64,000 nucleotides of DNA from Flavobacterium cupriresistens (GTDB lineage: Bacteria > Bacteroidota > Bacteroidia > Flavobacteriales > Flavobacteriaceae), in the NCBI RefSeq assembly GCF_020911925.1, contig NZ_CP087134.1:992001-1056000 (forward strand), in the 5' to 3' direction. The notes under the pieces were generated by a model. It saw nothing but the letters and a program-made list of their open reading frames with translations. It was not told where the DNA came from and did no database searches. Of the stretch, positions 35,369-64,000 are shown one piece after another (within the stretch, counting starts at the first letter, position 1; each line of letters opens with the position of its first letter). Both the position numbers and the translations under genes were made by a program.

Positions 35369-35929
35369 ATTTATACTCGTGCCAGTTTTACAAAATCTAC
35401 TTCTCGTATATCTGTTCCAGGTGAAAATAACTTTTGCCTTCAAAAGTTTAATTATTTATGAAAGTTTGTTGAAATGAAAATGATATTTTTTATAATTACT
35501 GGCCAGACGCTGTTTTAAAAAAAACGAATTATCACAGCCAAAGACCTTTACTTCTAGTCTTTTTGTTCCACAACTCGTTTTAATTTCGACAAAAAGACTC
35601 CCCGATTTAATTCAAAAATAACGCCGAAGGCGCCGATTTTTTTTGAAAAAATTGACTTCTAAAAAAGTTACATCCCTAAAATAAGTTCCATAATTTTCTA
35701 TATTATTACTGCCTAAAATCTATGATTTAATCCAGCTGTCACCCTGAGCGAAGTCGAAGGTTACGTTAGAAAATTTACACCTTTTTCACTTTCTCTGCGC
35801 TTCCTAAAGTTCAGAATTTACTAGATACTTATCCCTAGGCCAGTCTTCGACTTCGCTCAGGGTGACATAACGTACATAAGTGAGATTTGGAGGTGTAAAA
35901 CTAACGTACATCATTCTGTAAAGCTTATC

Positions 35930-35945
35930 CCTTCCACGTGAAAAC
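35930..35945. other. parS-like site, copy in tandem unit 1
   Basis: CCTTCCACGTGAAAAC, 12 of 16 positions match the parS consensus TGTTCCACGTGAAACA. Core CACGTG at 35935-35940. Confidence 0.5.
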
Positions 35946-36274
35946 TACATTGCAAAAATGGCTTTTGATCCTGGAGCTACTTTTATCAAAAATGAAATAA
36001 AGAGATCAGAGGATTGTTTTCTTGTTTCACGCTAAATTTTTTGTTTTTCTACGGCCTAAATCTACTAATTTAATCCAACTGTCACCCTGAGCGAAGTCGA
36101 AGGCTACGTTAGAAAATTTTCGCCTTTTTTCAGTTTTTCTGTGCTTCCTAAAGTTCGGAATTTGATAGATACATATCCTCCAGACCAGCCTTCGACTTCG
36201 CTCAGGGTGACATAACGTATATCAGTGAGATTTGAAGGTTTAAAACTAACGCACGTTATTTTGTAAAGCTTAGC

Positions 36275-36290
36275 CGTTCCACGTGGAAAC
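36275..36290. other. parS-like site, copy in tandem unit 2
   Basis: CGTTCCACGTGGAAAC, with the perfect 12-bp palindrome TTCCACGTGGAA inside. It sits at the same place in the unit as the unit 1 site. Confidence 0.6.
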
Positions 36291-36618
36291 TACATTTCAA
36301 AAATGGATTTAGATCTTGGAGTTACTTTTATCAAAAACGAAATAAAGAGATCAAAGGATCGTTTTATTGTGTCAGGTGAAATTTTAGTTTTTCTACTTCC
36401 TAAAGTCTCTAATTTAACCCAACAGTCACCCTGAGCGAAGTCGAAGGCTACGTTAGAAAATTTTCACCTTTTTTAAGTTATACTGTGCTTCCTCAAGTTT
36501 AGAATTTGATAGATACTCATCCTCTAGACCAGCCTTCGACTTCGCTCAGGTTGACATAACGTATAGCAGTGAGATTTGAAGGTTTAAAACTAACGTACAT
36601 TATTTTGTAAAGCTTAAC

Positions 36619-36634
36619 CGTTCCACGTGAAAAC
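36619..36634. other. parS-like site, copy in tandem unit 3
   Basis: CGTTCCACGTGAAAAC, 13 of 16 positions of TGTTCCACGTGAAACA, at the same place in the unit. Confidence 0.6.
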
Positions 36635-37248
36635 TACATTACAAAAATGGCTTTTGATCTTAAAGTTACTTTTTCAAAGAACAAAATAAAGAGATTTAAA
36701 GACTTCTTTTTTGTTTCAGGCGGAAGAATAGCTTTTTATTGTAAAAACAAAAAATACGGCTTAAAAAGCATGGTTTTGCGACTGTTTTCAAACTAACCAG
36801 CCATTTTACTTTTATCCAATCACTATTTGTTGTTATTAATGCTAAAAAACGCCGAAGGCGCCGATTTTTTTTTTTTTCGAATTTAAGCAAAGTCTTGGTC
36901 TCTCTTCGAAGTGATGCAAAATTCAATAAGTTTCACAACAAACTCCCTGCCTCTACTCCACAACCAAATCGTTTTGAAAAAAATCTCAAGAGTTTTATCT
37001 AAACTGGTCACACAACTTCTACCCAAAATATTCCTGCACAGGGTTTGCGCGAGTGATTCACTTATCTTAAAAATTAAAAAATTATCGATTCAAGAATCGT
37101 GTTTTATCGCTGTTTTTTTGTCGTTTTGGCATTTAGAAACCAAACGAGTCTTCGTCAAAAAACCATAACTAAAAATTAACACATTGTTAATCAAGATATT
37201 AAAAACATAAAAACAGGTAATTAGTCTAATGTTTTAGTGAATCCAAAA

Positions 37249-37264
37249 TGTTCCACGTGAAACT
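37249..37264. other. parS site
   Basis: TGTTCCACGTGAAACT, 15 of 16 positions identical to the widely conserved ParB target TGTTCCACGTGAAACA. It lies outside the tandem units. Confidence 0.8.
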
Positions 37265-37485
37265 ATTTTCGAATCTAAGACGTTTTAATTTTTCAAAACG
37301 ATTCAAAAAAAAATAAAATGAAGTCAATACAAAACGTTCTTTTTAAGACAGCACAGCTTGTTTTCTTTTGCTATAAAATCGCGTTATCAAACCAAAAACA
37401 ATAACAATTTACCGTTATCAAATTACATTTTATCACACTTATTACTTTGATTTTCGAATATCTCAATAAAATATTTCTTTCCCAG

Positions 37486-37508
37486 CCTTCGACTTCGCTC
37501 AGGGTGAC
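37486..37508 (+). repeat. Solo arm of the 'CTTCGACTTCGCTCAGGGTG' repeat
   Basis: Identical to the right arm of the 343-bp units, with no partner nearby. It shows the arm also exists as a dispersed element. Confidence 0.75.
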
Positions 37509-37561
37509 ACCCGTCTAAAATTGACCATTAAATAACTAATAATACCCATTTATCCCAAGCT

Positions 37562-37690
37562 TGAAACCTGAAACCTGAAACCTGAAACCTGAAACCTGAA
37601 ACTTGAAACCTGAAACTTGAAACTTGAAACTTGAAACTTGAAACTTGAATTTGGAATTTGAATTTGAATTTAGAATTTAGAATTTAAAAA
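37562..37690 (+). repeat. Heptanucleotide array TGAAACC/TGAAACT drifting into GAATTTG/GAATTTA
   Basis: About thirteen 7-bp units of TGAAACY in a row from 37562, then units of related sequence (TGAATTT, GGAATTT, AGAATTT) to about 37690. The array ends 15 bp from the stop of the helicase gene. Confidence 0.9.
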
Positions 37691-37704
37691 AATTGGAATT
37701 TTCC

Positions 37705-39984
37705 CTAATTTATACTCGCCTTAAACATTTTAAGTTCATCCCAGGTAAATTCGTCACCATATTTTTCCTTCAATGGGTTAAGCGATTCTTCTTGATAAAA
37801 TTGAAAAGCCTCTCGTAAAGCCAGTATTTTATCGTACGGCAATACGTCTGAAATATCCACTTTTTTAGTCTGAATTAGTTTGACTAAATGCATCTCAATT
37901 GTCTGCACCGTCAGCTTTCGAATTCGGGCAATATCCTGAATCGAATTCTTTTCTATCCATAGGTCGTAGGTTTCTTCTACCGTGGTTTTTTTGATCGTTT
38001 TTGGCTCATTATTATCGCGCTTTTTTGAAGTGTAACGTACAACCGGTTCTTCCACATTGAAGATATCCGTGTTGCTCATTTTAAACTCTTCACGAATCTT
38101 TTCCAGCTTATTTATTTTGAAGTTTTTAATAGCCGATGAAGTCAATTTTTCTTTGCAAATCGTTTCTCCTGCAACCACAATTTCAATCAATAATTTAGCT
38201 TTCATCAAGCGTAAAACCGCTTTTGTTTGCAAATCATCCAGCAAAGTCAGCTCTTCATAAAATTCTTTCACTTTTTTAAACTTCTGAATTTCAGCCATTT
38301 TTTGTAAAAGATCTGTCACCAATTTGTCCATTGGACCGAAAAAGTAATCATATGCTGCCACCATTCTTTCTTCAACAAAATACAAATCGACTGTTTCTTT
38401 ATTGAAAATTTTGTTCAGTTGTTGGATAAACTTTTGAGAAGGATCTACCAGCTGCTCTATGGTTTCTAAGCGCTTTTGTGCCCAAATAGCATGTTTGGCT
38501 TTTTCTGACGCAGCAGCATTTTCGTTGTAACTAAAACGGTGATTGCGCCATTCTTGTGCCAAATCTGACCAATTAAAACTGTTAATCAAATAGTTATGAA
38601 TAAAGTTTTTCGTTTCAAAATGCAACGATTTCTCTAAAACGTCCTCGGTAGCTTTATTCAAAGCATAATCCATCACATCCTGATCGTTAGAAATCCCATT
38701 CATACGCATCGGAGAAAGCAAAATAAGCCCATTTAAGGACCTTAAACGCGATAATGCTACATAGGCCTGTCCGGGAAGGAAAACTTGCGATACATCAAGC
38801 GCAGCTTTGTCAAAAGTTAATCCTTGGCTCTTATGTACCGTAATAGCCCAAGCCAATTTGATCGGATAATGCGCAAATGTGCCCAAAACTTCCTCTTCAA
38901 TCTCCTTGGTGAGCTCATTTACTTTGTAACGGATGTTTTTCCATTCGTACTTTTCTACTTCAATTGTTTTATTCTCTTCGGGGAAATGCACAAAAATTTC
39001 TTCCGGTGAAAGCGACTTGATAATCCCCATTTTTCCATTAAAATAGCGTTTTTCAAAGCTCAAATCGTTTTTTACAAACATGACCTGTGCTCCCACTTTC
39101 AACTTTAGATTTTCTTCTACCGGAAAAATTTTCTCCGGAAAATCACTTACGATAAAGGGTTGAAAAGAATACTCTTTTCCTGCTAAATCGTTTATCGCCT
39201 GCTCGTTAATAGAATCTGCTTTGGCATTATGAGTTGTTAAAGTAATATAACCCGGGTTACTCTTTAAATCAAAGTCAGGCAGTACATATTGGTTCAAAAA
39301 CTGCACATCATCAGCTGAAATCTGATTGTTACGCAGATTGTTCAAAACCGAGATAAAGGCATCATCTGTTTGACGGTAAATTTTAGATAACTCAATGTAC
39401 AAAGGCGGATTTTGCTGCATTACGTGAGAATGAAAAAAGAATTTTCCTTTGTAATAATTACGTAACGTTCGCCACTCTTCATCCCTAATTACGGGTGGCA
39501 ACTGCAATAAATCGCCTATAAAAAGCACCTGAACGCCACCAAAAGCATACGAATTTCTGCGAACAGTCTGCATCATAAAATCAATAGCATCAAGCAAATC
39601 GGCCCGCAACATACTTACTTCATCAATAATCAGTAACTCCATATTCCGGATTACATTACGCTTCAGACTGTTCATTTTAAAGTGCCTGCGCAACGTATCT
39701 TTATTCTCAAATTTCACCGTTTCGGTAAACTGCGAATTCGCCTCAAAAGAGGGTATAAAAGCGGAAAATGGCAGCTGAAACATCGAATGAATCGTCACGC
39801 CACCCGCATTTAAAGCCGCAATTCCGGTTGGGGCAACCACCACAGTATTCTTGTGCGTTGTGGCTATAATTTCCCTCAAAAGTGTCGTTTTTCCTGTCCC
39901 GGCTTTACCCGTCAGAAAGATCGACTTTTGCGTTTGATTGATAAATTGTAAGGTGTAAGCTGCTGCTTCTGAAACGTTTTGCAT
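37705..39984 (-). CDS. Pif1-like superfamily 1 helicase with C-terminal RQC-type helix-turn-helix
   Basis: An ATP-dependent DNA helicase. The 759-residue protein has Walker A GKAGTGKT at 26-33, VVVAPTGIAALNAGGVTIHS, Walker B LLIIDEVSMLRADLLD and FIGDLLQLPPV. Further SF1 motifs follow at about 370-420 (WAITVHKSQGLTFDKAALDV, VALSRLRSLNGLILL). This is the layout of Pif1/RecD2-like enzymes. The last part (about 660-745, TYDLWIEKNSIQDIARIRKL) fits the HTH_40 domain found at the end of RecQ-like and Pif1-like helicases. Pif1 enzymes resolve G-quadruplexes and help replication forks past barriers; the exact role here is not known. It stands alone on the minus strand. Its start, MQNVSEAAAYTLQFINQTQK, is the first in-frame Met. 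Confidence 0.9.
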   Translation of the reverse strand: MQNVSEAAAYTLQFINQTQKSIFLTGKAGTGKTTLLREIIATTHKNTVVVAPTGIAALNAGGVTIHSMFQLPFSAFIPSFEANSQFTETVKFENKDTLRRHFKMNSLKRNVIRNMELLIIDEVSMLRADLLDAIDFMMQTVRRNSYAFGGVQVLFIGDLLQLPPVIRDEEWRTLRNYYKGKFFFHSHVMQQNPPLYIELSKIYRQTDDAFISVLNNLRNNQISADDVQFLNQYVLPDFDLKSNPGYITLTTHNAKADSINEQAINDLAGKEYSFQPFIVSDFPEKIFPVEENLKLKVGAQVMFVKNDLSFEKRYFNGKMGIIKSLSPEEIFVHFPEENKTIEVEKYEWKNIRYKVNELTKEIEEEVLGTFAHYPIKLAWAITVHKSQGLTFDKAALDVSQVFLPGQAYVALSRLRSLNGLILLSPMRMNGISNDQDVMDYALNKATEDVLEKSLHFETKNFIHNYLINSFNWSDLAQEWRNHRFSYNENAAASEKAKHAIWAQKRLETIEQLVDPSQKFIQQLNKIFNKETVDLYFVEERMVAAYDYFFGPMDKLVTDLLQKMAEIQKFKKVKEFYEELTLLDDLQTKAVLRLMKAKLLIEIVVAGETICKEKLTSSAIKNFKINKLEKIREEFKMSNTDIFNVEEPVVRYTSKKRDNNEPKTIKKTTVEETYDLWIEKNSIQDIARIRKLTVQTIEMHLVKLIQTKKVDISDVLPYDKILALREAFQFYQEESLNPLKEKYGDEFTWDELKMFKASIN

Positions 39985-40031
39985 TATGGCTTGTATTGAA
40001 AAACTAAAAGTATCGTATTTTTTATAAAAGA

Positions 40032-40063
40032 AAAAACCTAAATCCGTGTAGATTTAGGTTTTT
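40032..40063 (-). terminator. Rho-independent terminator of the OmpH-like gene
   Basis: Stem AAAAACCTAAATC / GATTTAGGTTTTT with loop CGTGTA, 23 bp beyond the stop of the minus-strand gene. The minus-strand side ends in a T-run. Confidence 0.8.
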
Positions 40064-40085
40064 AGAAATTAGTTTGTTTTGTGTT

Positions 40086-40667
40086 TTATTTTTTAGCTTC
40101 CACACCCTCTTTTGCAGGAGCTTTTTCTTCTGTTTTCGGCGCAGATTTGTACTTATCGTTCAATTCTTTAACGATAACTTTTGTAATATCGTATTTATCT
40201 TCAGCATATAATACTGTTGCAGCATCACCTGTTCCGTAGATATAAGAATAACCGTTTTTCTTACCGTATTCTTTGATGTATTTTTTCACTCCGCTTACAA
40301 GAGAATCCATTTCAACTCCACTTTCTTGTTGCAATTGTTGCGACAAAGCTTGTTGAGCGTAACCCAATTGTTGCTCTCTTTTTTGCAATTCAGCACCTCT
40401 TTGTTGTGCCCATGCCTGACCGTTTGCTTGCGCTTGACTTTGAAAATTAGCAGCGTCTTGTTTAAAACGAGTAATTTCAGCTTGCAGTTGTCTTCCTTTT
40501 TCTTCTGCTTGAGATTTGTATTTTGCTTCAAGATCTTTTGCTTCAGTGTACTCTTTCATTAAAACCGAAGTATCAACGTAAGCTGTTTTTACTTCTTTAA
40601 CTTCTGCTGTTTTACCACATGAAACAACTAAAATTGAAACCGCGATAATTACTAATGCTTTTTTCAT
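40086..40667 (-). CDS. OmpH/Skp-family periplasmic lipoprotein
   Basis: Skp/OmpH proteins are trimeric periplasmic chaperones that hold unfolded outer-membrane proteins. The 193-residue protein has a lipoprotein signal with lipobox VVSCGK (Cys17). The OmpH opening TAYVDTSVLMKEYTEAKDLE follows, then a long Gln/Glu-rich coiled coil (about 45-125) and a C-terminal part with NGYSYIYGTGDAATVLYAED, which is typical of the family's closing beta sheet. A charged Lys/Glu tail ends the protein. The lipid anchor is common in Bacteroidota members. It is monocistronic with its own promoter and terminator. Client specificity is unknown. Confidence 0.88.
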   Translation of the reverse strand: MKKALVIIAVSILVVSCGKTAEVKEVKTAYVDTSVLMKEYTEAKDLEAKYKSQAEEKGRQLQAEITRFKQDAANFQSQAQANGQAWAQQRGAELQKREQQLGYAQQALSQQLQQESGVEMDSLVSGVKKYIKEYGKKNGYSYIYGTGDAATVLYAEDKYDITKVIVKELNDKYKSAPKTEEKAPAKEGVEAKK

Positions 40668-40699
40668 TTCTTTAATTTCTATTTTTTTAATGTTGAAGA

Positions 40700-40728
40700 C
40701 AAAAATATAAAAAAATAAATAGCATCAA
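40700..40728 (-). promoter_or_regulatory. Promoter of the OmpH-like gene
   Basis: Minus strand TTG (40728-40726), 18 bases, TATTTTTG (40707-40700). The start codon is at 40667. Confidence 0.6.
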
Positions 40729-40911
40729 CATAAAGTTTAAAAAATGCTCTTTTTTTCTTGTATCAATTTTTGTTATCGGACTTAAGTTATGTATAATTTA
40801 CTGTTATTAATAATGGATTTCATAGCTCGTTTTTAAGCGAATTTCTAAAAAAAGACATATTCAGAGCCCTTCTTACCTAAAAACGTCGCTAAAACGCGCT
40901 AAAAATAAGTT

Positions 40912-41760
40912 TTAGCTGTTTTTTAGCACGTAAATGTGCGAAGAATATTCCATCGTACGTCTGGCTTTTAGATTTGACTTCAAACCGATCAAAAAAGCAC
41001 TGATGTAGTTCATTTTTCCTGTTTTGTATTTTTCGGATAATAAACTCACATAAAAAGAATCAAATTTCATCGGAAGTACTTTTTCTAATTTCATATCCAC
41101 TTTTTCAAAAAGCGATTGAATGGCTTTTTTAGAGAAATGCCAAAAATGAATCGGCACATCATAAGCTGCCCAAAATGTATCGTAATGTTTTGCGTCGTAT
41201 GATTTAAAATTTGGAACCGCAACAATTAATGTTCCAGTTGGTTTTAATAAACGTTTCAATTCCGAAATTTGAAATTCCAAATTTGGAACATGTTCTAAAA
41301 CGTGCCACATTGTAATTACATCAAACGAATTATTCTCCAGAGCACTGATTTCGTCCACAAATGAAATTCCTTTTTTAACTGCAATTTCTTTTGCTCTTGC
41401 GCTTGGTTCTACTCCAATCGTTTCCCAACCATCATTTTTTGCTGTTAATAAAAAATCGCCAGTTCCGGCACCAATGTCCAAAATTCTGCCTTTCTGAGCT
41501 TGCTCTGCATTAATCAAATTCAGCTTATTTTTTAAGGCTATATTTTTTACAAAGTGATAGGCTTTTTCAAATAATGAACGTTTGTTGTCTGTGTGCGAAA
41601 TATAATCTTCACTTTCGTAATACCTTCCTAAATTTTCTAAATCCGGTTGTGGAGACGTAATTAACATGTCCAGGTTTTCATCATAATACAATTCGAAAAT
41701 TTCTTTAGAAACGGAATGATCTTTTACCGTAAGAAAGTGTTTTTTATTTAAAACGTTCAT
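40912..41760 (-). CDS. Class I SAM-dependent methyltransferase
   Basis: Transfers a methyl group from S-adenosylmethionine to an unknown substrate. The roughly 282-residue protein has motif I RILDIGAGTGDFLLTAKNDG, the acidic residue after strand 2 (TIGVEPSARA) and DVITMWHVLEHVPNLEFQIS (motif post-I/II). LLKPTGTLIVAVPNFKSYDA, the methyltransferase type 11/23 layout, follows. The N-terminal SVSKEIFELYYDENLDMLIT segment is typical of Bacteroidota members. The frame extends to a GTG at 41820 and a Met at 41793, but those lie in or just after a hairpin that probably ends the acetyltransferase transcript, so MNVLNKKHFLTVKDHSVSKE at 41760 is chosen. The stop codon lies within a weak hairpin (40898-40916). 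Confidence 0.8.
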   Translation of the reverse strand: MNVLNKKHFLTVKDHSVSKEIFELYYDENLDMLITSPQPDLENLGRYYESEDYISHTDNKRSLFEKAYHFVKNIALKNKLNLINAEQAQKGRILDIGAGTGDFLLTAKNDGWETIGVEPSARAKEIAVKKGISFVDEISALENNSFDVITMWHVLEHVPNLEFQISELKRLLKPTGTLIVAVPNFKSYDAKHYDTFWAAYDVPIHFWHFSKKAIQSLFEKVDMKLEKVLPMKFDSFYVSLLSEKYKTGKMNYISAFLIGLKSNLKARRTMEYSSHIYVLKNS

Positions 41761-41799
41761 TTTATAAATATTGGGGTTTTGATTTAACTTCATAGCAAA

Positions 41800-41828
41800 C
41801 CCTAAAAATGAAAAATTCACTTTTAGGG
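41800..41828 (-). terminator. Hairpin after the acetyltransferase gene, possible terminator
   Basis: CCCTAAAAATGAA / TTCACTTTTAGGG, arms of 13 with one mismatch and a 3-base loop. No strong T-run follows on the minus strand. Confidence 0.4.
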
Positions 41829-41851
41829 CTTATTCTATTTTATATACTTTT

Positions 41852-42316
41852 TTAATACTTCCAATTTATTTTGACGGCAGACATTTTCTCGCCTTCATAT
41901 CTCTTGTCTTCAAGCACTACAAATCCATTTTTAATATAAAACGGCAATGGAGATTTGTATGCCTCTTTATTTTGTTTCACGTCATTCTCATGATCGATCA
42001 CCCAACCATTCAAACTTCTTTTATTCTTTTTTAATTCGTTTATCAAAAGCCTACCGTTACCACTCCCTTGAATATCGCTATCCAAAATTATAGCAAACCA
42101 ATCTTCTCCCTCTCGTAAAAAAGTAAAAGCCCAGCCTTTGATCCTGCTATTCTCATCAAGCAACAAATAATGCTTCTTTTCCACCAAAGCATCCAGATAC
42201 AAATCAAAATCATGCATAGCCTGATAATTTAATTTCACCGGATATTCGTTATTCCAAAGTTGCAACAACGTTTCTTTATCTTGCAATGATAAAACTTCTT
42301 TCTCAATTATTTTCAT
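41852..42316 (-). CDS. GNAT-family acetyltransferase
   Basis: A roughly 154-residue protein with the acetyl-CoA binding pattern of GNAT enzymes: IILDSDIQGSGNGRLLINEL (motif A, Q/GxGxG type). A late strand-helix PLPFYIKNGFVVLEDKRYEG follows, with the family's YxxxGF core. The acceptor is unknown. The frame can be read from an ATG at 42370 (MFHVKLFRDRF), but that segment is a parS site. MKIIEKEVLSLQDKETLLQL at 42316 is the likely start. It is downstream of mnmG on the same strand, separated by a long inverted repeat, and followed by a hairpin. Confidence 0.78.
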   Translation of the reverse strand: MKIIEKEVLSLQDKETLLQLWNNEYPVKLNYQAMHDFDLYLDALVEKKHYLLLDENSRIKGWAFTFLREGEDWFAIILDSDIQGSGNGRLLINELKKNKRSLNGWVIDHENDVKQNKEAYKSPLPFYIKNGFVVLEDKRYEGEKMSAVKINWKY

Positions 42317-42353
42317 GACTAAACAATAACTTAAATAAAATCTATCACGAAAT

Positions 42354-42369
42354 AGTTTCACGTGGAACA
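42354..42369. other. parS site between mnmG and the acetyltransferase gene
   Basis: AGTTTCACGTGGAACA, 15 of 16 positions of TGTTTCACGTGGAACA (the reverse complement of the classical parS). Confidence 0.8.
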
Positions 42370-42374
42370 ATTGT

Positions 42375-42472
42375 AATTTTAGATTGTGGATTTTAGATTT
42401 TAGATTGCGTGAAATCTAAAATCTAAAAATTACTCCTTACGCTCAACAATCTAAAATCAACAATCTAAAATT
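42375..42472. repeat. Long inverted repeat built from the heptamer TTTTAGA/ATCTAAA
   Basis: Inner stem TTTTAGATTTTAGATT (42391-42406) pairs perfectly with AATCTAAAATCTAAAA (42413-42428) around GCGTGA. Outer copies AATTTTAGATTGT and ACAATCTAAAATT extend the symmetry. It begins right after the mnmG stop codon on the minus strand and may also act as its terminator. Confidence 0.75.
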
Positions 42473-42478
42473 CTCTCT

Positions 42479-44350
42479 CTACCTTCCCATATAAATCAAT
42501 AACACCGAAATATCACTTGGTGATACTCCGCTGATTCTTGATGCTTGCGAAATGGTTACGGGACGAATTTTGCTTAATTTTTGTTTTGCTTCGATTGACA
42601 TTGATTTGATTTTGTTGTAGTCAAAATTCTCCGGAATTTTTACTTCTTCAAGTCTTGTCAATTTGTCTGCGTTATTTCTTTCCTTCTCGATGTATCCGGA
42701 ATACTTCACTTGAATTTCGGCTTGCTCTAAGATTTCCTGATCAAGATCGTTTGCTGCGATGTATTCTTTCACTTTCTCAAATTTCATGATATCCTCCAAA
42801 TCAATTTGTGGACGAGAGAACACTTTAAACATTTTATCACCTTGTGTAATCAATGCGGTATCCTTCGCTTCTAAAATAGGATTTGCCTCTCCAACCGAAA
42901 CACTTGTTTCTTTGAAAAAGGCAACCATCTTTTCAGACTCATTTAATTTGTGTTCCATTCTACGCAAACGCTTTTCAGAAGCCAAACCAATTTCATGTGA
43001 CATTGGTGTCAATCTGAAATCGGCATTATCCTGACGCAACAAAGTTCTATACTCTGCTCTTGAGGTAAACATACGATATGGTTCTTCTGTACCTTTCGTA
43101 ATCAAGTCGTCGATCAGTACTCCGATATACGCTTCATCACGTTTCAAAATCAATGGCGCTTTTTCGTGTACTTTTAAATGCGCATTTATACCGGCCATCA
43201 AACCTTGCGATGCAGCTTCTTCATATCCGGTTGTTCCGTTTATTTGTCCTGCGAAATACAATCCTTCCACCAGCTTTGTTTCCAAAGTATGTTTCAATTG
43301 TGTTGGCGGGAAATAATCATATTCGATCGCGTAACCGGGACGGAAGAACTTCACGTTCTCAAAACCGGCAACAGAACGCAATGCTTTAAATTGAATATCC
43401 TCAGGAAGCGAAGTCGAAAATCCATTCACATAAACCTCACAAGTATTCCAACCTTCCGGTTCAACAAATAACTGATGACGTTCTTTATCAGCAAAACGAT
43501 TAATCTTATCTTCTATCGACGGACAGTATCTTGGGCCGATACTTTTTATACGACCGTTGAACATTGGTGAACGATCAAAACCAGATCTCAAAATATCATG
43601 CACGTCCAAGGACGTGTACGTCATATGACATGATCTCTGATGAATCAAAGGTGACGTCACATCGGAGTACGAAAACTTATCCGGCTTTGCATCTCCCTTT
43701 TCTTCGTTCATTTTAGAATAGTCCAAAGAACGTCCATCGACTCTCGGTGGCGTTCCTGTTTTCATTCTTCCAGATTCAAATCCTGCCTGAACTAAATCTT
43801 CGGTGATTCCGTACGCAGCACTTTCGCCTGCTCTACCCCCACCAAACTGTTTGTCTCCAATATGAATCAGACCATTCAAAAAAGTACCATTTGTCAAAAC
43901 CACCGATTTCGAACGAATCTCAATTCCAAGCGAAGTTTTCACACCTTTGATTTTGCCATTCTCAATAATCAAACCTTTGACCATCTCCTGGTAGAAATCC
44001 AAATTTGGAGTTCCCTCCAACATCATTCTCCATTCTTCGGCGAAACGCATTCGATCACTTTGAACTCTTGGCGACCACATTGCAGGACCTTTTGATTTGT
44101 TCAACATCTTAAATTGAATTGCCGTCCGATCTGAAATAATTCCGGAATATCCTCCGAGCGCGTCAATCTCACGAACGATCTGTCCTTTTGCAATTCCACC
44201 CATTGCAGGGTTGCAAGACATCTGTGCAATGTTCTGCAAACTCATTGTAACCAGCAGCGTTTTGGATCCCAAATTTGCTGCCGCTCCCGCGGCCTCGGAA
44301 CCGGCATGGCCAGCACCCACCACAATAACATCGTATTCTTCTAAAAACAT
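42479..44350 (-). CDS. mnmG: tRNA uridine-5-carboxymethylaminomethyl modification enzyme MnmG (GidA)
   Basis: With MnmE, MnmG forms the cmnm5 modification on the wobble uridine of several tRNAs, using FAD and NADH. The 623-residue protein has the dinucleotide-binding motif DVIVVGAGHAGSEAAGAAAN at the N-terminus and the family signatures MSCNPAMGGIAKGQIVREID and KTGTPPRVDGRSLDY. EGLYFAGQINGTTGYEEAAS also matches, as does the C-terminal domain ending ISGVSPSDISVLLIYMGR. Length is normal. The region upstream of the gene (44351-44687) holds six parS sites. gidA is near the replication origin in many bacteria. Certain identification. Confidence 0.97.
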   Translation of the reverse strand: MFLEEYDVIVVGAGHAGSEAAGAAANLGSKTLLVTMSLQNIAQMSCNPAMGGIAKGQIVREIDALGGYSGIISDRTAIQFKMLNKSKGPAMWSPRVQSDRMRFAEEWRMMLEGTPNLDFYQEMVKGLIIENGKIKGVKTSLGIEIRSKSVVLTNGTFLNGLIHIGDKQFGGGRAGESAAYGITEDLVQAGFESGRMKTGTPPRVDGRSLDYSKMNEEKGDAKPDKFSYSDVTSPLIHQRSCHMTYTSLDVHDILRSGFDRSPMFNGRIKSIGPRYCPSIEDKINRFADKERHQLFVEPEGWNTCEVYVNGFSTSLPEDIQFKALRSVAGFENVKFFRPGYAIEYDYFPPTQLKHTLETKLVEGLYFAGQINGTTGYEEAASQGLMAGINAHLKVHEKAPLILKRDEAYIGVLIDDLITKGTEEPYRMFTSRAEYRTLLRQDNADFRLTPMSHEIGLASEKRLRRMEHKLNESEKMVAFFKETSVSVGEANPILEAKDTALITQGDKMFKVFSRPQIDLEDIMKFEKVKEYIAANDLDQEILEQAEIQVKYSGYIEKERNNADKLTRLEEVKIPENFDYNKIKSMSIEAKQKLSKIRPVTISQASRISGVSPSDISVLLIYMGR

Positions 44351-44412
44351 TTTGTTTTATTATTCTCCGGAAACCCTTTAAGGTGGCTCTCAGAATTAAC
44401 TTTATACTCTTT

Positions 44413-44428
44413 TGTTCCACGTGGAACT
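44413..44428. other. parS site 1 of the mnmG-ybeY cluster
   Basis: TGTTCCACGTGGAACT; 14-bp perfect palindrome GTTCCACGTGGAAC at 44414-44427. Confidence 0.85.
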
Positions 44429-44505
44429 TTTCTTAAATTCCAAAAAAATGAAATACCAAATTCCAAAACTTGGGGGTTTTAGCTGCGCTAAAACGGGGTT
44501 CAAAC

Positions 44506-44521
44506 TGTTCCACGTGGAACG
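44506..44521. other. parS site 2 of the cluster
   Basis: TGTTCCACGTGGAACG; perfect palindrome core, 93 bp from site 1. A small hairpin GTTTTAGC-TGC-GCTAAAAC (44476-44494) lies between sites 1 and 2. Confidence 0.85.
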
Positions 44522-44549
44522 GATTTGATTTCAAAATTTCAAAACTGAG

Positions 44550-44565
44550 CGTTCCACGTGGAACG
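44550..44565. other. parS site 3 of the cluster
   Basis: CGTTCCACGTGGAACG, a perfect 16-bp palindrome, 44 bp from site 2. Confidence 0.85.
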
Positions 44566-44595
44566 TTTCACAAACTCAATCTCAATATTTCACTT

Positions 44596-44611
44596 TGTTT
44601 CACGTGGAACG
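44596..44611. other. parS site 4 of the cluster
   Basis: TGTTTCACGTGGAACG, 46 bp from site 3. Confidence 0.85.
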
Positions 44612-44641
44612 TTTTCTGGATATCTCTACAAAAACAGAATA

Positions 44642-44657
44642 TGTTTCACGTGGAACA
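44642..44657. other. parS site 5 of the cluster, exact consensus
   Basis: TGTTTCACGTGGAACA, the exact reverse complement of TGTTCCACGTGAAACA, 46 bp from site 4. Confidence 0.92.
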
Positions 44658-44687
44658 CCTTTTCAAACTTTTAAAAAGATGTTTAAG

Positions 44688-45107
44688 CTATAGTTCCACG
44701 TGGAACATGGCGATTTTTTCATCTTCTTTTGAGCGCATTAACGCTGCATCAGCATCACTTTTATCTTTGTATCCACAGTAATGCAAAATACCGTGGGCTA
44801 AAACACGCTTCAATTCTTCATCAAAAGGAACATTAAAATCCTTAGCGTTGTCTTCTACTCTTTCAACAGAAACAAAAATATCTCCGTTTAATTCGTTACC
44901 AACTGTATAGTCAAAACTGATAATATCGGTTAGTGTGTCGTGATCCAGATACTCTACATTTATTTTATGAAGATATTCATCGTCACAAAAAATGTAATTT
45001 ATCTCTCCCTCGTTTTTGTTTTCAGAAACAATTACAGCACTCAACCAATCAGTAAAGGCTTCTTCGTTCTCTAAATTAAATTCTGTTTCGTAATTAAAAT
45101 TGATCAT
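44688..45107 (-). CDS. ybeY: Endoribonuclease YbeY, rRNA maturation factor
   Basis: YbeY is a metal-dependent endoribonuclease involved in 16S rRNA 3' end maturation and ribosome quality control. The 139-residue protein carries the family blocks FCDDEYLHKINVEYLDHDTL and TDIISFDY, plus the active-site motif LAHGILHYCGYKDKS. The usual HGxLHxxGxxH has Asp/Lys where the third His ligand normally stands, a variation I recall as usual in Bacteroidota. Its ATG overlaps the stop of the DUF4175 gene (ATGA), indicating translational coupling. The last codons are a parS site (see the site 6 entry), so protein and centromere share sequence. Confidence 0.92.
   Translation of the reverse strand: MINFNYETEFNLENEEAFTDWLSAVIVSENKNEGEINYIFCDDEYLHKINVEYLDHDTLTDIISFDYTVGNELNGDIFVSVERVEDNAKDFNVPFDEELKRVLAHGILHYCGYKDKSDADAALMRSKEDEKIAMFHVEL
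44692..44707. other. parS site 6 of the cluster, inside the end of ybeY
   Basis: AGTTCCACGTGGAACA, 50 bp from site 5. It encodes the last residues FHVEL of YbeY on the minus strand. Confidence 0.85.
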
Positions 45108-48493: not shown

Positions 48494-48610
48494 AATGAAT
48501 CTGTTTTACTTATAACCTATAAAAGTACTAATTATAGCAATTCAATTTCCAAAAAATAAATTCCAAATTCCAACTGCTGTAGTCTTTTAGAATTTGGGAT
48601 TTTTAAAAAT

Positions 48611-48638
48611 TTGGATTTTAACTAATATCGTATCTTTG
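48611..48638 (+). promoter_or_regulatory. Promoter of gltX, decides the start codon
   Basis: TTG at 48611-48613, 17 bases, TATCTTTG at 48631-48638. The upstream Met at 48594 lies before this promoter and cannot be used on its transcript. The ATG at 48657 follows 18 bp after the -7 element. Confidence 0.7.
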
Positions 48639-48656
48639 CATCAAAATTTCAAACAA

Positions 48657-50162
48657 ATGTCAAAGCAAGTTCGGGTGCGTTTTGCACCAAGTCCAACAGG
48701 GCCATTACATATTGGTGGTGTTCGTACTGCCCTATTTAATTATTTATTTGCCAAAAAAAACAATGGTGTTTTTTACCTGAGAATTGAAGATACTGATCAA
48801 ACTCGTTTTGTTCCCGGTGCTGAAGCTTACATAATGGAAGCATTAGAATGGTTGGGAATTGCTCCTGAAGAAACCGTTGGAAAAAACGAAAAATTTGGTC
48901 CGTACAGACAAAGTGATCGTAAAGCAATCTATCAAGAATATGCCGATCAACTGATCCATTCGGGTTGGGCGTATTATGCTTTTGATACTCCGGAAGCACT
49001 TGATGCCTTAAGAAAAGAACATGAAGCAGATGGAAAAACATTTATTTACAACCATCATAATCGTGAAAAGTTAGATACATCTCTTGTAATTTCTGCCGAT
49101 GAAGTTGCTAAAAGAATCGCAAATGGAGAACATTATGTGATCCGTTTTAAAACTCCGGTTGATGAAACTTTACATTTGAAAGACATCATTCGCGGAGATG
49201 TAAAGTTTGAAACGAATCTTCTTGACGATAAAGTTTTGTTTAAAAGTGACGGAATGCCAACCTACCACTTAGCTAATATTGTGGATGATCATTTGATGGA
49301 AACTTCACATGTAATTCGTGGTGAAGAATGGTTGCCGTCTATGCCTCTTCACGTTTTATTATACAGAGCTTTTGGATGGGATGCTCCGGAATTTGCTCAT
49401 TTACCTTTGATATTAAAACCAGTTGGTAATGGAAAATTATCTAAAAGAGATGGTGATAAATTAGGATTTCCTGTGTTTCCGTTAGAATGGAAAACCGAAG
49501 AGGGTACCTCTTCCGGATACAGAGAGAAAGGTTTTTTCCCGGAAGCTGTTATAAATTTCCTTGCTTTATTAGGTTGGAATGACGGAACGGATAAAGAATT
49601 ATTTTCATTGGAGGAACTAGTAGATGCTTTTGACTTAAACAGAGTGCACAAATCAGGAGCAAAATTTGATCCTGAGAAAAACAAATGGTTCAATCACCAG
49701 CATTTAATCAAACAAAATGATGCAGATTTAGCCAAAGACTTTACTCCTATTTTGGAAGAAAAAGGGTTCTCGACTTCGCTCGAACTGACAACACGTATTG
49801 TGTCTCTTATTAAAGAACGCGCTCATTTTGTTTCTGAATTTTGGGATCTTACTGATTTCTTTTTCCAGGCACCAACTTCTTATGATGAGAAAGCAAGCAA
49901 AAACTGGAAGGAAGAAACACCGGCTTTGATGCAGGAACTGATCTCCGTTTTAGAAAATATTGCTGATTTTACTTCTGCGAATATCGAAACAATTGTAAAA
50001 GATTGGTTGACGAAAAACGAAATTGGAATGGGTAAAGTAATGCAACCTTTCCGACTGAGTTTGGTTGGAGCGCTTAAAGGTCCTCACCTATTTGACATTG
50101 TAGAAATCATCGGAAAAGAAGAAACTATTTCGAGAATTCAGAAAGCAATAAGTTCGATATAA
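48657..50162 (+). CDS. gltX: Glutamate-tRNA ligase
   Basis: Charges tRNA-Glu. The 501-residue class I synthetase begins MSKQVRVRFAPSPTGPLHIG with the HIGH motif at 18-21 and carries the KMSKS-equivalent KLSKRDG at about 260. Other blocks include YLRIEDTDQTRFVPGA, TYHLANIVDDHLMETSHVIR and FQAPTSYDEKASKNWKEETP. The frame extends upstream to 48594, but those 21 residues are rejected because the promoter lies inside them. At 49767-49790 the coding DNA reads TTCTCGACTTCGCTCGAACT, a variant of the intergenic repeat arm seen at 35.7-37.5 kb, here giving the residues FSTSLEL. Terminator at 50186-50225. Certain identification. Confidence 0.97.
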   Translation: MSKQVRVRFAPSPTGPLHIGGVRTALFNYLFAKKNNGVFYLRIEDTDQTRFVPGAEAYIMEALEWLGIAPEETVGKNEKFGPYRQSDRKAIYQEYADQLIHSGWAYYAFDTPEALDALRKEHEADGKTFIYNHHNREKLDTSLVISADEVAKRIANGEHYVIRFKTPVDETLHLKDIIRGDVKFETNLLDDKVLFKSDGMPTYHLANIVDDHLMETSHVIRGEEWLPSMPLHVLLYRAFGWDAPEFAHLPLILKPVGNGKLSKRDGDKLGFPVFPLEWKTEEGTSSGYREKGFFPEAVINFLALLGWNDGTDKELFSLEELVDAFDLNRVHKSGAKFDPEKNKWFNHQHLIKQNDADLAKDFTPILEEKGFSTSLELTTRIVSLIKERAHFVSEFWDLTDFFFQAPTSYDEKASKNWKEETPALMQELISVLENIADFTSANIETIVKDWLTKNEIGMGKVMQPFRLSLVGALKGPHLFDIVEIIGKEETISRIQKAISSI

Positions 50163-59612: not shown

Positions 59613-61790
59613 TTAAGCTCTTCTTAAAAAATGAAAATCCAATTGTTTCTTAACTAAATCTGCATTTTTTACTTTAACGTAAATTTCATCTCCTAATTGT
59701 AAAATACTGTTTGAAGTCGCACCAACTAAGGCATACTGCTTTTCATCAAAAGTATAATAATCGTCTTTTATTTCGCGAATTCTAACCATTCCTTCACATT
59801 TGTTCGAAACGATTTCAACATAAATTCCCCATTCTGTAACACCGGAAATAACACCCAAAAACTCTTCGTCCTGATGGTCCTGCATGTATTTCACCTGCAT
59901 GTATTTAATACTATCACGTTCCGCATTAGTAGCTAAACTTTCCATATTCGAGCAATGCAAACATTTTGTTTCATACACTTCTTCGTCCACAGAAGCTCCT
60001 TTGTCTAAATAATACTGCAGTAAACGATGCACCATAACGTCCGGATAACGACGAATTGGCGAAGTAAAGTGACTGTAATAATCAAAAGCCAGACCATAAT
60101 GTCCAATATTCTCTGTCGAATATTTGGCTTTACTCATACTTCTAATGGCAAGAGTATCAATTAAATTCTGCTCTTTTTTACCATTTACTTCTTCCATCAA
60201 AGCATTCAATGATTTCGAAATATCTCCTTTGTTTCTAAAATCAATCTTATAACCAAACTTTGCAATAACCGATTGCATGGCAATTAGTTTGTCTTCATTT
60301 GGCTCATCGTGAATTCTGTAAACAAATGTTTTCTTTTGTTTTCCAATGTATTCGGCCACTTTTCGGTTGGCTAAAAGCATGAATTCTTCAATCAGATGAT
60401 TGGCATCTTTTGAAACTTTGAAATAAACGCCTTCCGGTTCTCCTTGTTCGTCTAAATTGAATTTTACTTCTACTTTATCAAACGAAATCGCACCATTGGC
60501 CATTCTTTTTCTTCTCAGAATCTTAGCTAATTCATCTAACTTTAAAGTAGCCTGAACAATTTCATCTGAAACTAAATACGAACTTCCGGTAATTGAAATA
60601 TCAACCGGGATCGTATGATCTTTTGTTTCAATGATATACTGTGCTTCTTCGTAAGCAAAACGCTGATCAGAATAAATTACAGTTCTTCCAAACCATTGGT
60701 TGATAACTTGTGCATTTTCTGAAACTTCAAAAACAGCAGAGAATGTATATTTTTCTTCATTCGGACGTAGCGAACAGGCAAAATTAGATAAAACTTCCGG
60801 AAGCATTGGCACTACCCTGTCTACTAAATAAACCGAAGTAGCACGTTGATAGGCTTCATCATCTAAAATTGTTCCTTCTTCCAGATAATAGGAAACATCG
60901 GCAATATGGATTCCGATTTCATAATTTCCATTCTCTAACTTTTTGAAAGACAAGGCATCATCAAAATCTTTTGCATCTTTTGGATCTATCGTAAACGTAA
61001 GCGTATCACGCATATCACGACGTTTTGCAATTTCAGCTTCCTGAATGGTAGTGTCTATCTTTTGGGCATAAACCTCTACTTCTACCGGAAAATCTGCCGG
61101 CAAACCGTATTCTGCTAAAATAGCATGAATTTCTGTATTGTGTTCTCCGGGTTTTCCTAAAACACGAACCACAGATCCAAACGGACTATCGGCTCTTTTT
61201 GGCCAATCTTCAATGGTAACCAAAACAACGTCACCATTTTCTGCTTCGCCTATTTTATCTTTTGGAATAAAAATATCGGTATACATTTTAGGATTTGCTG
61301 TAGAAACAAAGGCAAAATTGGCCTGAATGTCAATAACTCCGACAAAATCAGTTTTATTTCTTTCTACCACTTCAATTACTTCACCTTCAGGTCTTTTCCC
61401 TTTTCTTCGGTTGTAAACGTATACTTTAACTTTGTCTTTATCCAGGGCACGATTCAAATTATTCGTTGGAATAAAAACATCTTCTGTAAAATCAGGGCAA
61501 ATGAAATAAGCTGTTTTACGGCTTGTCATATCAATTGTTCCTTCGTAGTAATCCTGACTTTCTGCTTTTACTAAATATTTACCGGGTTCAGATTCTATAA
61601 TTTTTTTTGAAGCAGCCAGAATCTTTAAATCTTTAATAATCTGGTTTCTGCTTTTGGTATCATCAAGTTCTAACTTTGCTCCTATCTGTTTGTAATTAAA
61701 TGCTTTATTCGGGCTTTGCGATAAAATCTTTACTATCTTACTGGAGAAATCTTTCTCATTTTTTATCGGCTTTCTAATTTTCTTACTCAT
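59613..61790 (-). CDS. rnr: Ribonuclease R
   Basis: A 3'-5' exoribonuclease that digests structured RNA. The 725-residue protein has an N-terminal helix-turn-helix-like part (about 1-70), cold-shock OB domains (about 75-240: DYYEGTIDMTSRKTAYFICP, GVIDIQANFAFVSTANPKMY) and the RNB catalytic domain. That domain holds the acidic cluster TIDPKDAKDFDDALSF (about 268-283), with IGIHIADVSYYLEEGTILDD, RRKRMANGAISFD and HYGLAFDYYSHFTSPIRRYP. A C-terminal S1 domain follows (GVISGVTEWGIYVEIVSNKC). Length and order are normal. The start MSKKIRKPIKNEKDF is the first Met. It is the first gene of the unit with the GIN-domain and LysE-family genes. Confidence 0.97.
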   Translation of the reverse strand: MSKKIRKPIKNEKDFSSKIVKILSQSPNKAFNYKQIGAKLELDDTKSRNQIIKDLKILAASKKIIESEPGKYLVKAESQDYYEGTIDMTSRKTAYFICPDFTEDVFIPTNNLNRALDKDKVKVYVYNRRKGKRPEGEVIEVVERNKTDFVGVIDIQANFAFVSTANPKMYTDIFIPKDKIGEAENGDVVLVTIEDWPKRADSPFGSVVRVLGKPGEHNTEIHAILAEYGLPADFPVEVEVYAQKIDTTIQEAEIAKRRDMRDTLTFTIDPKDAKDFDDALSFKKLENGNYEIGIHIADVSYYLEEGTILDDEAYQRATSVYLVDRVVPMLPEVLSNFACSLRPNEEKYTFSAVFEVSENAQVINQWFGRTVIYSDQRFAYEEAQYIIETKDHTIPVDISITGSSYLVSDEIVQATLKLDELAKILRRKRMANGAISFDKVEVKFNLDEQGEPEGVYFKVSKDANHLIEEFMLLANRKVAEYIGKQKKTFVYRIHDEPNEDKLIAMQSVIAKFGYKIDFRNKGDISKSLNALMEEVNGKKEQNLIDTLAIRSMSKAKYSTENIGHYGLAFDYYSHFTSPIRRYPDVMVHRLLQYYLDKGASVDEEVYETKCLHCSNMESLATNAERDSIKYMQVKYMQDHQDEEFLGVISGVTEWGIYVEIVSNKCEGMVRIREIKDDYYTFDEKQYALVGATSNSILQLGDEIYVKVKNADLVKKQLDFHFLRRA

Positions 61791-62133: not shown

Positions 62134-64000
62134 AACAATTTACAATTTCAAAAATCAATTTCAATTACAAATCAATCTGAAAACTCAAATTCAGTTTTTT
62201 TCTTTTTAAACTTTCAAAGTTGTCAACATATATTAAATACAACAAAAAAGAAATTTTAAATTTAATTAAATTTTGGTTGTTATTATAGCGTGTTAATAGG
62301 TACAATAATTTTATTTTTAAAAGTATTGAAATGAAGTTTCTCTTAGTTATCTAGAGTTATCAACATACTTATATTTTGTTAAAGGATTAGTTTTTAAGAC
62401 TTTTTGAATTTTAATTAACAACGGTTGACAACCTAAAATGAATTGATTTTGTAGATAAGTTCATATGTCGATTTTTGTTGAAAATGGTATTTTTGATCTT
62501 GATAACTTTTCTAAAAATTCATGAAACTTTATTAGGTTATTTCATTCCGGTTTTGGATTAGGTTTTTTTTTGACACGACCAAAAAAAACTTCTAATTTTC
62601 TATCTTTAGTTATTAACAGATAATGTTAATTTAAGGTTAACTGAATATCAATGAATTAGGTTTCAGTATTAACATTCTAAAATTTTAACAAAAACATTGT
62701 TTATTCTTAATTGATAATCAGCTTCTTATGGAGATACTAAAATTGTTAATAACGTTAACATTTTGAAATTAAGGCAGTTGTATTAGATGTTTTTTCGCGA
62801 CGAATTGCAATAACTTCCACGAATTGAAAAAAGTGTTTATAAAGTGGCTATTTCGATAAATTTTAAAAGAAAAATTGGTAAAAATTGGTGTAATTCGAGG
62901 CAAACTTTTCTTTTAAAATTGGTTGAAAATAAAATGTACTACTGATATATTGATAATCAGTAATTTATACAGATGTTGATAATTGTTAATAACGTTAACG
63001 TATTTAATATTAGGTAGTTATTTAGCTTTTTTTTGCCACGAATTACATGAATTACCGCAAATTGAAAAAAAATGTTGATAACGTGTGTATTTCTGTAGTT
63101 TTAAAATAAATATTAGTGAATATTGGTATAATTCGTGGCTAACTTTATATTTTTAAGTTCTTTAATTTAGGGTTTGTTATGTTTAGTATCAATGAGTTAG
63201 ATATAGGTAATAATTAGGATATGATTTAGAATAAAATACACTAATTATGTATTGATTATCAGAGATTTATAGAGATGTTAGCAATTGTTAATAACGTTAA
63301 TTAACTTAAAATAAGATAGTTATATAGTACTTTTATGCCACTAATTGCACTAATTTTCACTAATTGGAAAAAAGTGTTTATCAAATACCTATTTATGTAA
63401 TTTTTAAAAAGAAAAATCAGTGAAAATCGGTGGAATTCGTGTTCAGCTTTACGTTTTAAGCTAGTTTATATTAAAAATGCACTATTTTTATCTTGATTAT
63501 CAGTGATTTATATGGATATTAATAATTGTTAATAACCTTAATGTATTGAAAATTAAATAGTTATTTCATTCCCGAATTTCGTAAAATGCCCATTCCTATA
63601 ATTTTAAAAAGAGGAATTAGTGTAATCCGTGTTGAGCTTTAGGTTTTAAGTTAGTTTATAATAAAAGTGCACTATTTGTATCTTGATTATCAGTGATTTA
63701 TATGGGTATTAATAATTGTTAATAACGTTAAGGTATTGAAAATTAAATAGTTATTTCATTCCCGAATTTCGTAAAATGCCCATTCCTGCAATTTTAAAAA
63801 GAGGAATTAGTGAAAATTAGTGTAATCCGTGTTGAACTTTACGTTTTAAGTTAGTTTATAATAAAACTGTACCGTTTGTATTTTGATTATCAGTGATTTA
63901 TATAGATATTAATAATTGTTAATAACGTTAATATATTGAAAATTAAATAGTTATTTCAGTCAGTAATCGCGCTAATTTTCCCAAATTTCATAAAATGTCT
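62134..64000. repeat. Gene-free region with at least six tandem, diverged intergenic repeat units
   Basis: GTTAATAACGTTAA or a close variant (one AACC change) at 62745, 62985, 63287, 63528, 63718 and 63918. Each is preceded by TTGATTATCAG-TGATTTATA (or a variant) and followed by a TAGTTATTT block and by an AATTCGTGGC / AATCCGTGTT phrase. Spacing is 190-302 bp. GTTAA-TAACG-TTAAC is itself an inverted repeat. No ORF of interest. The array continues past the window. Confidence 0.85.

Follow-up and report, generated by a model that had tools for sequence, protein, structure and literature searches.

The window, the whole stretch of 64,000 nucleotides of the Flavobacterium cupriresistens chromosome that was analysed, carries mnmG (gidA, 42479..44350, minus strand; TIGR00136, 842.9 bits against a cut-off of 524.85) and, immediately upstream of it, ybeY (44688..45107, minus strand; TIGR00043, 107.3 bits, cut-off 45). 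A group of six palindromic 14-mers of the parS type starts at 44414, 44507, 44551, 44597, 44643 and 44693, with spacings of 93, 44, 46, 46 and 50 bp. The first site (44414..44427, sequence GTTCCACGTGGAAC) lies 64 bp upstream of mnmG. The motif scan places the next three at 44507..44520, 44551..44564 and 44597..44610, and the fifth (44643..44656) is part of an exact 16-bp match at 44642-44657. The sixth (44693..44706) occupies the last codons of ybeY and encodes the YbeY C-terminus in frame, as FHVEL (44688-44710). Like all the non-coding features described below, the sites carry no strand assignment. An earlier reading of the sequence alone had reported six palindromes here, the last five 44-50 bp apart, as well as an exact 16-mer, and both the positions and the spacings were reproduced. 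It had also placed the cluster between mnmG and ybeY, which is correct for the first five sites; the sixth falls inside the end of the ybeY open reading frame (44688-45107).

Fifteen matches to TGTTYCACGTGRAACA at three or fewer mismatches are found in the window, while 100 dinucleotide shuffles gave a mean of 1.04 and a maximum of 4, none of the 100 reaching 15. Across the whole genome (5,740,613 bp, single contig), GTTYCACGTGRAAC occurs exactly at eight places, all of them at window 37250-44706 (within 7.5 kb), and six of the eight fit in 293 bp. The expectation from the base composition of the window is 0.05 exact sites per genome, and a reversed-pattern control gave no exact site in the F. 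cupriresistens genome. With one mismatch, GTTYCACGTGRAAC is found at window 36276, window 36620 and genome 2,055,841. At two or fewer mismatches there are 50 places genome-wide versus 28 for the reversed pattern, so the looser matches elsewhere in the genome are mostly background. The genome maximum anticipated at this locus is thus confirmed, as no exact parS lies outside it and no equal density exists elsewhere. Eight exact matches to the degenerate 14-mer and one to the degenerate 16-mer assign the sites to the 16-bp palindromes of TGTTTCACGTGAAACA type, the parS consensus used in the available passages of PMC10197239.

Two exact sites lie west of mnmG. One of them (42355..42368) is just downstream of the gene and matches a downstream site that is present in most of the best relatives' loci (see below). 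The other (37250..37263) is 5.2 kb downstream of mnmG and outside open reading frames of at least 100 amino acids. There are also four degenerate sites, two with one mismatch (36276..36289 and 36620..36633) and two with two mismatches (35931..35944 and 35414..35427). All except the one at 35414 are copies within a tandem repeat (period 344 bp, 2.9 copies, 35707..36695), and three of the four are therefore not independent. The sequence-only reading had counted eleven sites in 8.8 kb, three of them degenerate. Many sites are indeed close together, but the 14-mer at two or fewer mismatches gives 12 over 9.3 kb, with four degenerate.

Several other sequence features were recorded on this side of the window. 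The 344-bp repeat (35707-36695) also bears inverted CCTTCGACTTCGCTCAGGGTGACA-type elements, which recur at 37482, and a non-coding run of TGAAACC/TGAAACT heptamers (12.6 copies) occupies 37560-37649. Further west, a single 2-kb stretch (18001-20000) differs from its neighbours, with an AT skew of -0.497 and GC raised to 46%. The Rfam scan of the window detected a single tRNA and no other structured RNA.

Two arrangements of the cluster were considered and rejected. The last four spacings correspond to 4.2-4.8 helical turns and are inconstant, which does not fit helical phasing. Recent tandem duplication was discarded as the origin of the six sites because no tandem array was called in the cluster and its only reported direct-repeat family has a length of just 27 nt, of which parS makes up 14.

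Partition proteins and the presumed origin

The genome encodes one ParB_N protein at E <= 0.001, located at 202 kb (111.5 bits, cut-off 26.3). The protein reaches the cut-off of TIGR00180 (parB_part; 166.6 bits, cut-off 58.45). Its best match among solved structures is a ParB family protein (E 4.6e-52); the five best are ParB-family/Spo0J chains, followed by Noc chains. The residue pair R173 and G201 (Caulobacter numbering) is of the parS type (PMC7383237), and R167 and G195 of the protein described here are the corresponding DNA-reading residues, an equivalence that rests on how the listed contact positions are spaced and not on a structure. The protein agrees at five of the six listed conserved contact positions, the equivalent of S172 being K. 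The position equivalent to 184 is also a lysine, as in Noc, and K at both 172 and 184 is unlike Caulobacter. A Noc protein with an NBS nucleoid occlusion site was rejected, given R and G rather than Q173 and R201; the Noc model is the top-scoring NCBIfam model (238.4 bits), yet the protein remains under that model's own cut-off of 315.

An open reading frame with the motif KGGVGKTT lies directly upstream of parB (201-203 kb). This candidate ParA has ParA-superfamily matches and reaches none of the NCBIfam cut-offs among the models listed. The earlier reading, which a genome lacking parB would have refuted, is thus sustained by one parB gene with parA beside it. In contrast to the usual layout, the cluster is far from both parAB (0.83 Mb) and dnaA (1.04 Mb).

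GC skew was sampled at 100 points, comprising 98 stretches of 20 kb on a 57.4-kb grid (the stretch at 5.63 Mb is missing), one extra stretch, and the window, which replaced one grid stretch. Cumulative skew drops over the first 1.02 Mb of the genome and climbs, with small reversals, beyond 1.07 Mb until it peaks at 3.74 Mb. The coarse minimum between 1.024 and 1.070 Mb (100 points) was refined in contiguous sequence to genome position 1,054,243 (window 62243). A skew minimum near the locus had been predicted, and it lies 17.5 kb from the parS cluster, which is accordingly close to the origin as placed from skew. The minimum is located in an AT-rich spacer (24.7% GC, 2339 bp) between rnr (RNase R, 59613..61790, minus strand; TIGR02063, 736.9 bits, cut-off 597.85) and rpiB (plus strand). 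The spacer extends from 61791 to the end of the window at 64000 and on to genome 1,056,129. It contains no match to the consensus DnaA box TTWTNCACA, and four one-mismatch TTATCCACA-like boxes versus a mean of 0.78 per window stretch of the same length, where the maximum is also 4 and may be the spacer itself. A 190-bp tandem repeat (2.8 copies, 63402-63958) is found inside the spacer. The dnaA match begins at base 415, 1.05 Mb (18% of the chromosome) from the skew minimum, and parB is 0.85 Mb from the minimum. Numbering the chromosome from dnaA therefore misplaces the presumed origin.

A similar arrangement is seen in two other single-contig Flavobacterium genomes, G129 and G141, each profiled with 20 stretches, which makes the profiles noisy. 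The coarse skew minimum is at 0.87-1.04 Mb in G129, with mnmG at 1.02 Mb, and at 0.89-1.04 Mb in G141, with mnmG at 1.00 Mb and uneven arms (maximum at 2.80 Mb of 2.96). In both, dnaA is at the genome start, parB is 0.85-0.90 Mb from mnmG, and there is a second, weak Bac_DnaA match. The fine skew minimum of G129 is also between rnr and rpiB. The main dnaA match and parB are both at least 0.8 Mb from mnmG or the parS pair in all five relatives examined, the distance in G160 being taken from its mnmG contig range and that in G014 from its parS pair.

Seventeen loci, each only about 12-22 kb long, contain both rnr and rpiB. In 16 of these (the exception is L186), skew changes from negative on the left side to positive on the right. 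The cumulative minimum is in the spacer in five, about 0.6 kb or less before rpiB in six (where rpiB and rnr have the same direction) and elsewhere in six, two of which have it just upstream of mnmG. We infer that the rnr/rpiB spacer is oriC, its exact position being presumptive because the consensus DnaA box was not found and the minima vary in position among loci.

The exact sites are confined to one place in the genome, parB and parA are present, and the skew minimum is close by, all of which supports the earlier suggestion of a probable chromosomal centromere. Based on these sequence features, we put at about 95% the probability that this cluster serves a Flavobacterium-like chromosome as its parS centromere. 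By analogy with known ParABS systems, the six sites and the two exact western ones would be the loading points for ParB from the distant parAB pair. Loaded ParB would close as a CTP-bound clamp and slide across several kilobases of DNA, giving a single partition complex. Once replication has begun at the nearby origin, ParA would soon pull apart the complexes on the new copies.

Conservation of parS beside mnmG

The best 80 of at least 591 MnmG relatives were retained, and 79 of their loci hold an exact parS (one locus has none). Of these 80 loci, 76 have exact sites no more than 1300 bp upstream of mnmG, 70 have them no more than 500 bp downstream, and 67 have both; upstream sites are missing or inexact in four. 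These two places account for 186 of the 188 exact sites, and none is within mnmG. The reversed control gave no match in the 1,590,291 bases of the same loci. The commonest layout is one parS before and one after mnmG.

In most of the 80 best loci, a site precedes the mnmG start by about 20-150 bp, a position from which a bound protein could influence transcription. The palindromes could thus be operators of a CACGTG-binding regulator, or part of an autoregulatory ParB circuit on mnmG and ybeY, with no role as a centromere. We regard this as very improbable, since the second site, after the mnmG stop, is at a place where no operator is needed, the motif is nowhere else exact in the genome and corresponds to the target of the genome's own type of ParB, and the locus is near the skew minimum in three genomes.

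In 78 of 81 loci (the 80 best relatives and the window), the gene directly upstream of mnmG is ybeY. An exact parS overlaps the ybeY open reading frame in 40 of these 78, and the encoded tail is of the FHV type in 37 of the 40 and read in another frame in three (counted by hand). A one-mismatch site yields the YbeY tail FHMEQ in L142 and L160. The natural explanation is a fixed centromere site into which ybeY has drifted or through which it has been extended.

Exact sites are present in all 41 Flavobacterium genomes (reversed control: one match, in one of the 41) and in 57 of 60 genomes sampled across the phylum (reversed control: none of 60). From these 57 genomes, 29 short loci were cut out, and mnmG is beside the sites in 27 of the 29. 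In L241, at a contig end, ybeY is beside the sites, and L237 has parS with neither gene and no mnmG within 1.5 kb. One of the four parS sites of L235 is inside the mnmG match. As judged by comparing loci, the mnmG-side parS is an old predicted centromere of the Bacteroidota that multiplied in F. cupriresistens.

The unlinked parAB, the high copy number of the sites and the nearby tandem repeats could also suggest that the sites served the partition of another replicon, be it a plasmid or conjugative element that integrated or a secondary replicon that fused with the chromosome. Against this, the neighbours mnmG, ybeY, rnr, rpiB and gltX (48594-50162, identified by eye) are core genes, the order of ybeY and mnmG is conserved as described above, the linkage of parS to mnmG is phylum-wide, and the genome has a single ParB_N match. 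We consider such an origin of the sites extremely unlikely.

Known centromeres and the number of sites

The proposed centromere resembles the chromosomal ParABS centromeres of Bacillus subtilis, Caulobacter and Pseudomonas, as presented in the available passages of PMC7333895, in having the same palindrome, a parS-type ParB, ParA and a skew-predicted origin nearby. It differs from them in the distances to parAB (0.83 Mb) and dnaA (1.04 Mb), and because ScpA and ScpB were not found. Model searches of the genome for ScpA and ScpB (PF02616 and PF04079) gave no matches; in the controls these matched in 9 and 11 of 14 genomes, and a Bacteroides control genome was in neither group. The SMC-loading half of the textbook role may thus be absent. 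According to the parts of PMC10197239 available to us, two Bacteroidetes have no known condensin, and one of them still has a secondary diagonal in Hi-C. Since Flavobacterium apparently lacks ScpAB, it is a useful group for studying the role of ParB-parS without that condensin.

The same Hi-C study covers 12 gut bacteria, including the two Bacteroidetes, and reports that most detected parS were clustered and that the clusters, together with GC skew, placed the origin, which was not always at dnaA. Its origins were placed with parS and skew, whereas here the skew was computed without parS. The passages available make no mention of mnmG, of Flavobacterium or of which species' dnaA is off-origin. 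In the Flavobacteriaceae, Ori-Finder placed oriC at mnmG, in agreement with GC skew, in Mariniflexile litorale (PMC11278836) and Algorimicrobium (PMC12843772). In the former dnaA does not fit the skew, and a figure legend reads as if the origin and terminus labels were exchanged. A link to parS is absent from the available passages of these two papers, and the skew minimum found here is 16-18 kb from mnmG, at the rnr/rpiB spacer, in two genomes. Searching the openly readable literature by title and abstract start, we found, among the papers listed, no description of parS at mnmG in Bacteroidota; by title, none of those listed on parS number and genome size was relevant either. The cluster is very probably a genuine centromere, of a known kind; its dense packing and its fixed place at mnmG, at a great distance from parAB and dnaA, are worth recording. 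They provide a precise conserved centromere address, and a nearby replication-origin address, for a large bacterial group. The single-contig Flavobacterium genomes examined are numbered from dnaA, about 1 Mb from the apparent start of replication in the three that were sampled for skew.

Upstream sites have multiplied in some of the window's closest relatives among the best 80 listed, and in L124. Four to seven exact sites are found in the 600 bp before mnmG in L116, L117, L118 and L124; L115 has six such sites farther upstream, at about 1-1.2 kb. In a family sample of one genome per genus (n = 120, that of the window included), only six genomes have exact pairs 25-55 bp apart: four such pairs in the window's genome and one in each of the other five. 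The sequence-only reading described dense parS clusters as unusual, which holds for close pairs in the family (6 of 120), but not for bacteria overall (PMC7333895) or for large Flavobacterium genomes. Up to 20-23 parS are located near the origin in Streptomyces coelicolor and Listeria innocua, according to the available text of PMC7333895; multiple origin-near sites are common to these species and to F. cupriresistens, but theirs are more numerous, and here six of eight are packed in 293 bp.

The five Flavobacterium genomes larger than 5 Mb have 7-9 sites each, and the other 36 of the 41 have 1-5. The exact parS count correlates with genome size across the 41 genomes (Spearman 0.69), in the 30 that are at least 95% complete (0.72) and in the 25 of those below 5 Mb (0.50, p 0.011). 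In an identity-matched comparison, 14 genomes with MnmG identity of at least 93% give a correlation of 0.87; identity to the query itself is not predictive (0.21, p 0.48). None of these correlations is corrected for ancestry, genome sizes were rounded, and sites may be missing from draft assemblies. This series of site numbers within one genus is a direct way to study why the number varies, a question left open in the available passages of PMC7333895.

Repeat expansion around a single functional parS may have left the extra copies as neutral debris, with no more than one or two sites being important. One parS suffices in Pseudomonas, according to the title of PMC4368675, two exact sites are present in 52 of the 80 best loci and three in 20 of the 41 genus genomes, and the western near-sites are within a plain tandem repeat. 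L115 likewise has, upstream of mnmG (L115:9321-9941), a 117-bp tandem repeat, five units of which carry a decayed parS with CACATG instead of CACGTG. On the other hand, the six palindromes of the cluster are still exact with no surrounding repeat longer than 27 nt, which suggests selection on the sites, and site number climbs with genome size. We judge neutral expansion rather unlikely. More tentatively still, the mnmG-anchored centromere may be general to Bacteroidota whatever the position of parAB and dnaA, and operate without ScpAB, with parS number in Flavobacterium scaling with genome size to equip a longer chromosome with stronger arm organisation or a larger ParB complex. All four genomes sampled from one genus outside the window's class have 6-7 sites, and the expansion therefore seems to have arisen more than once.
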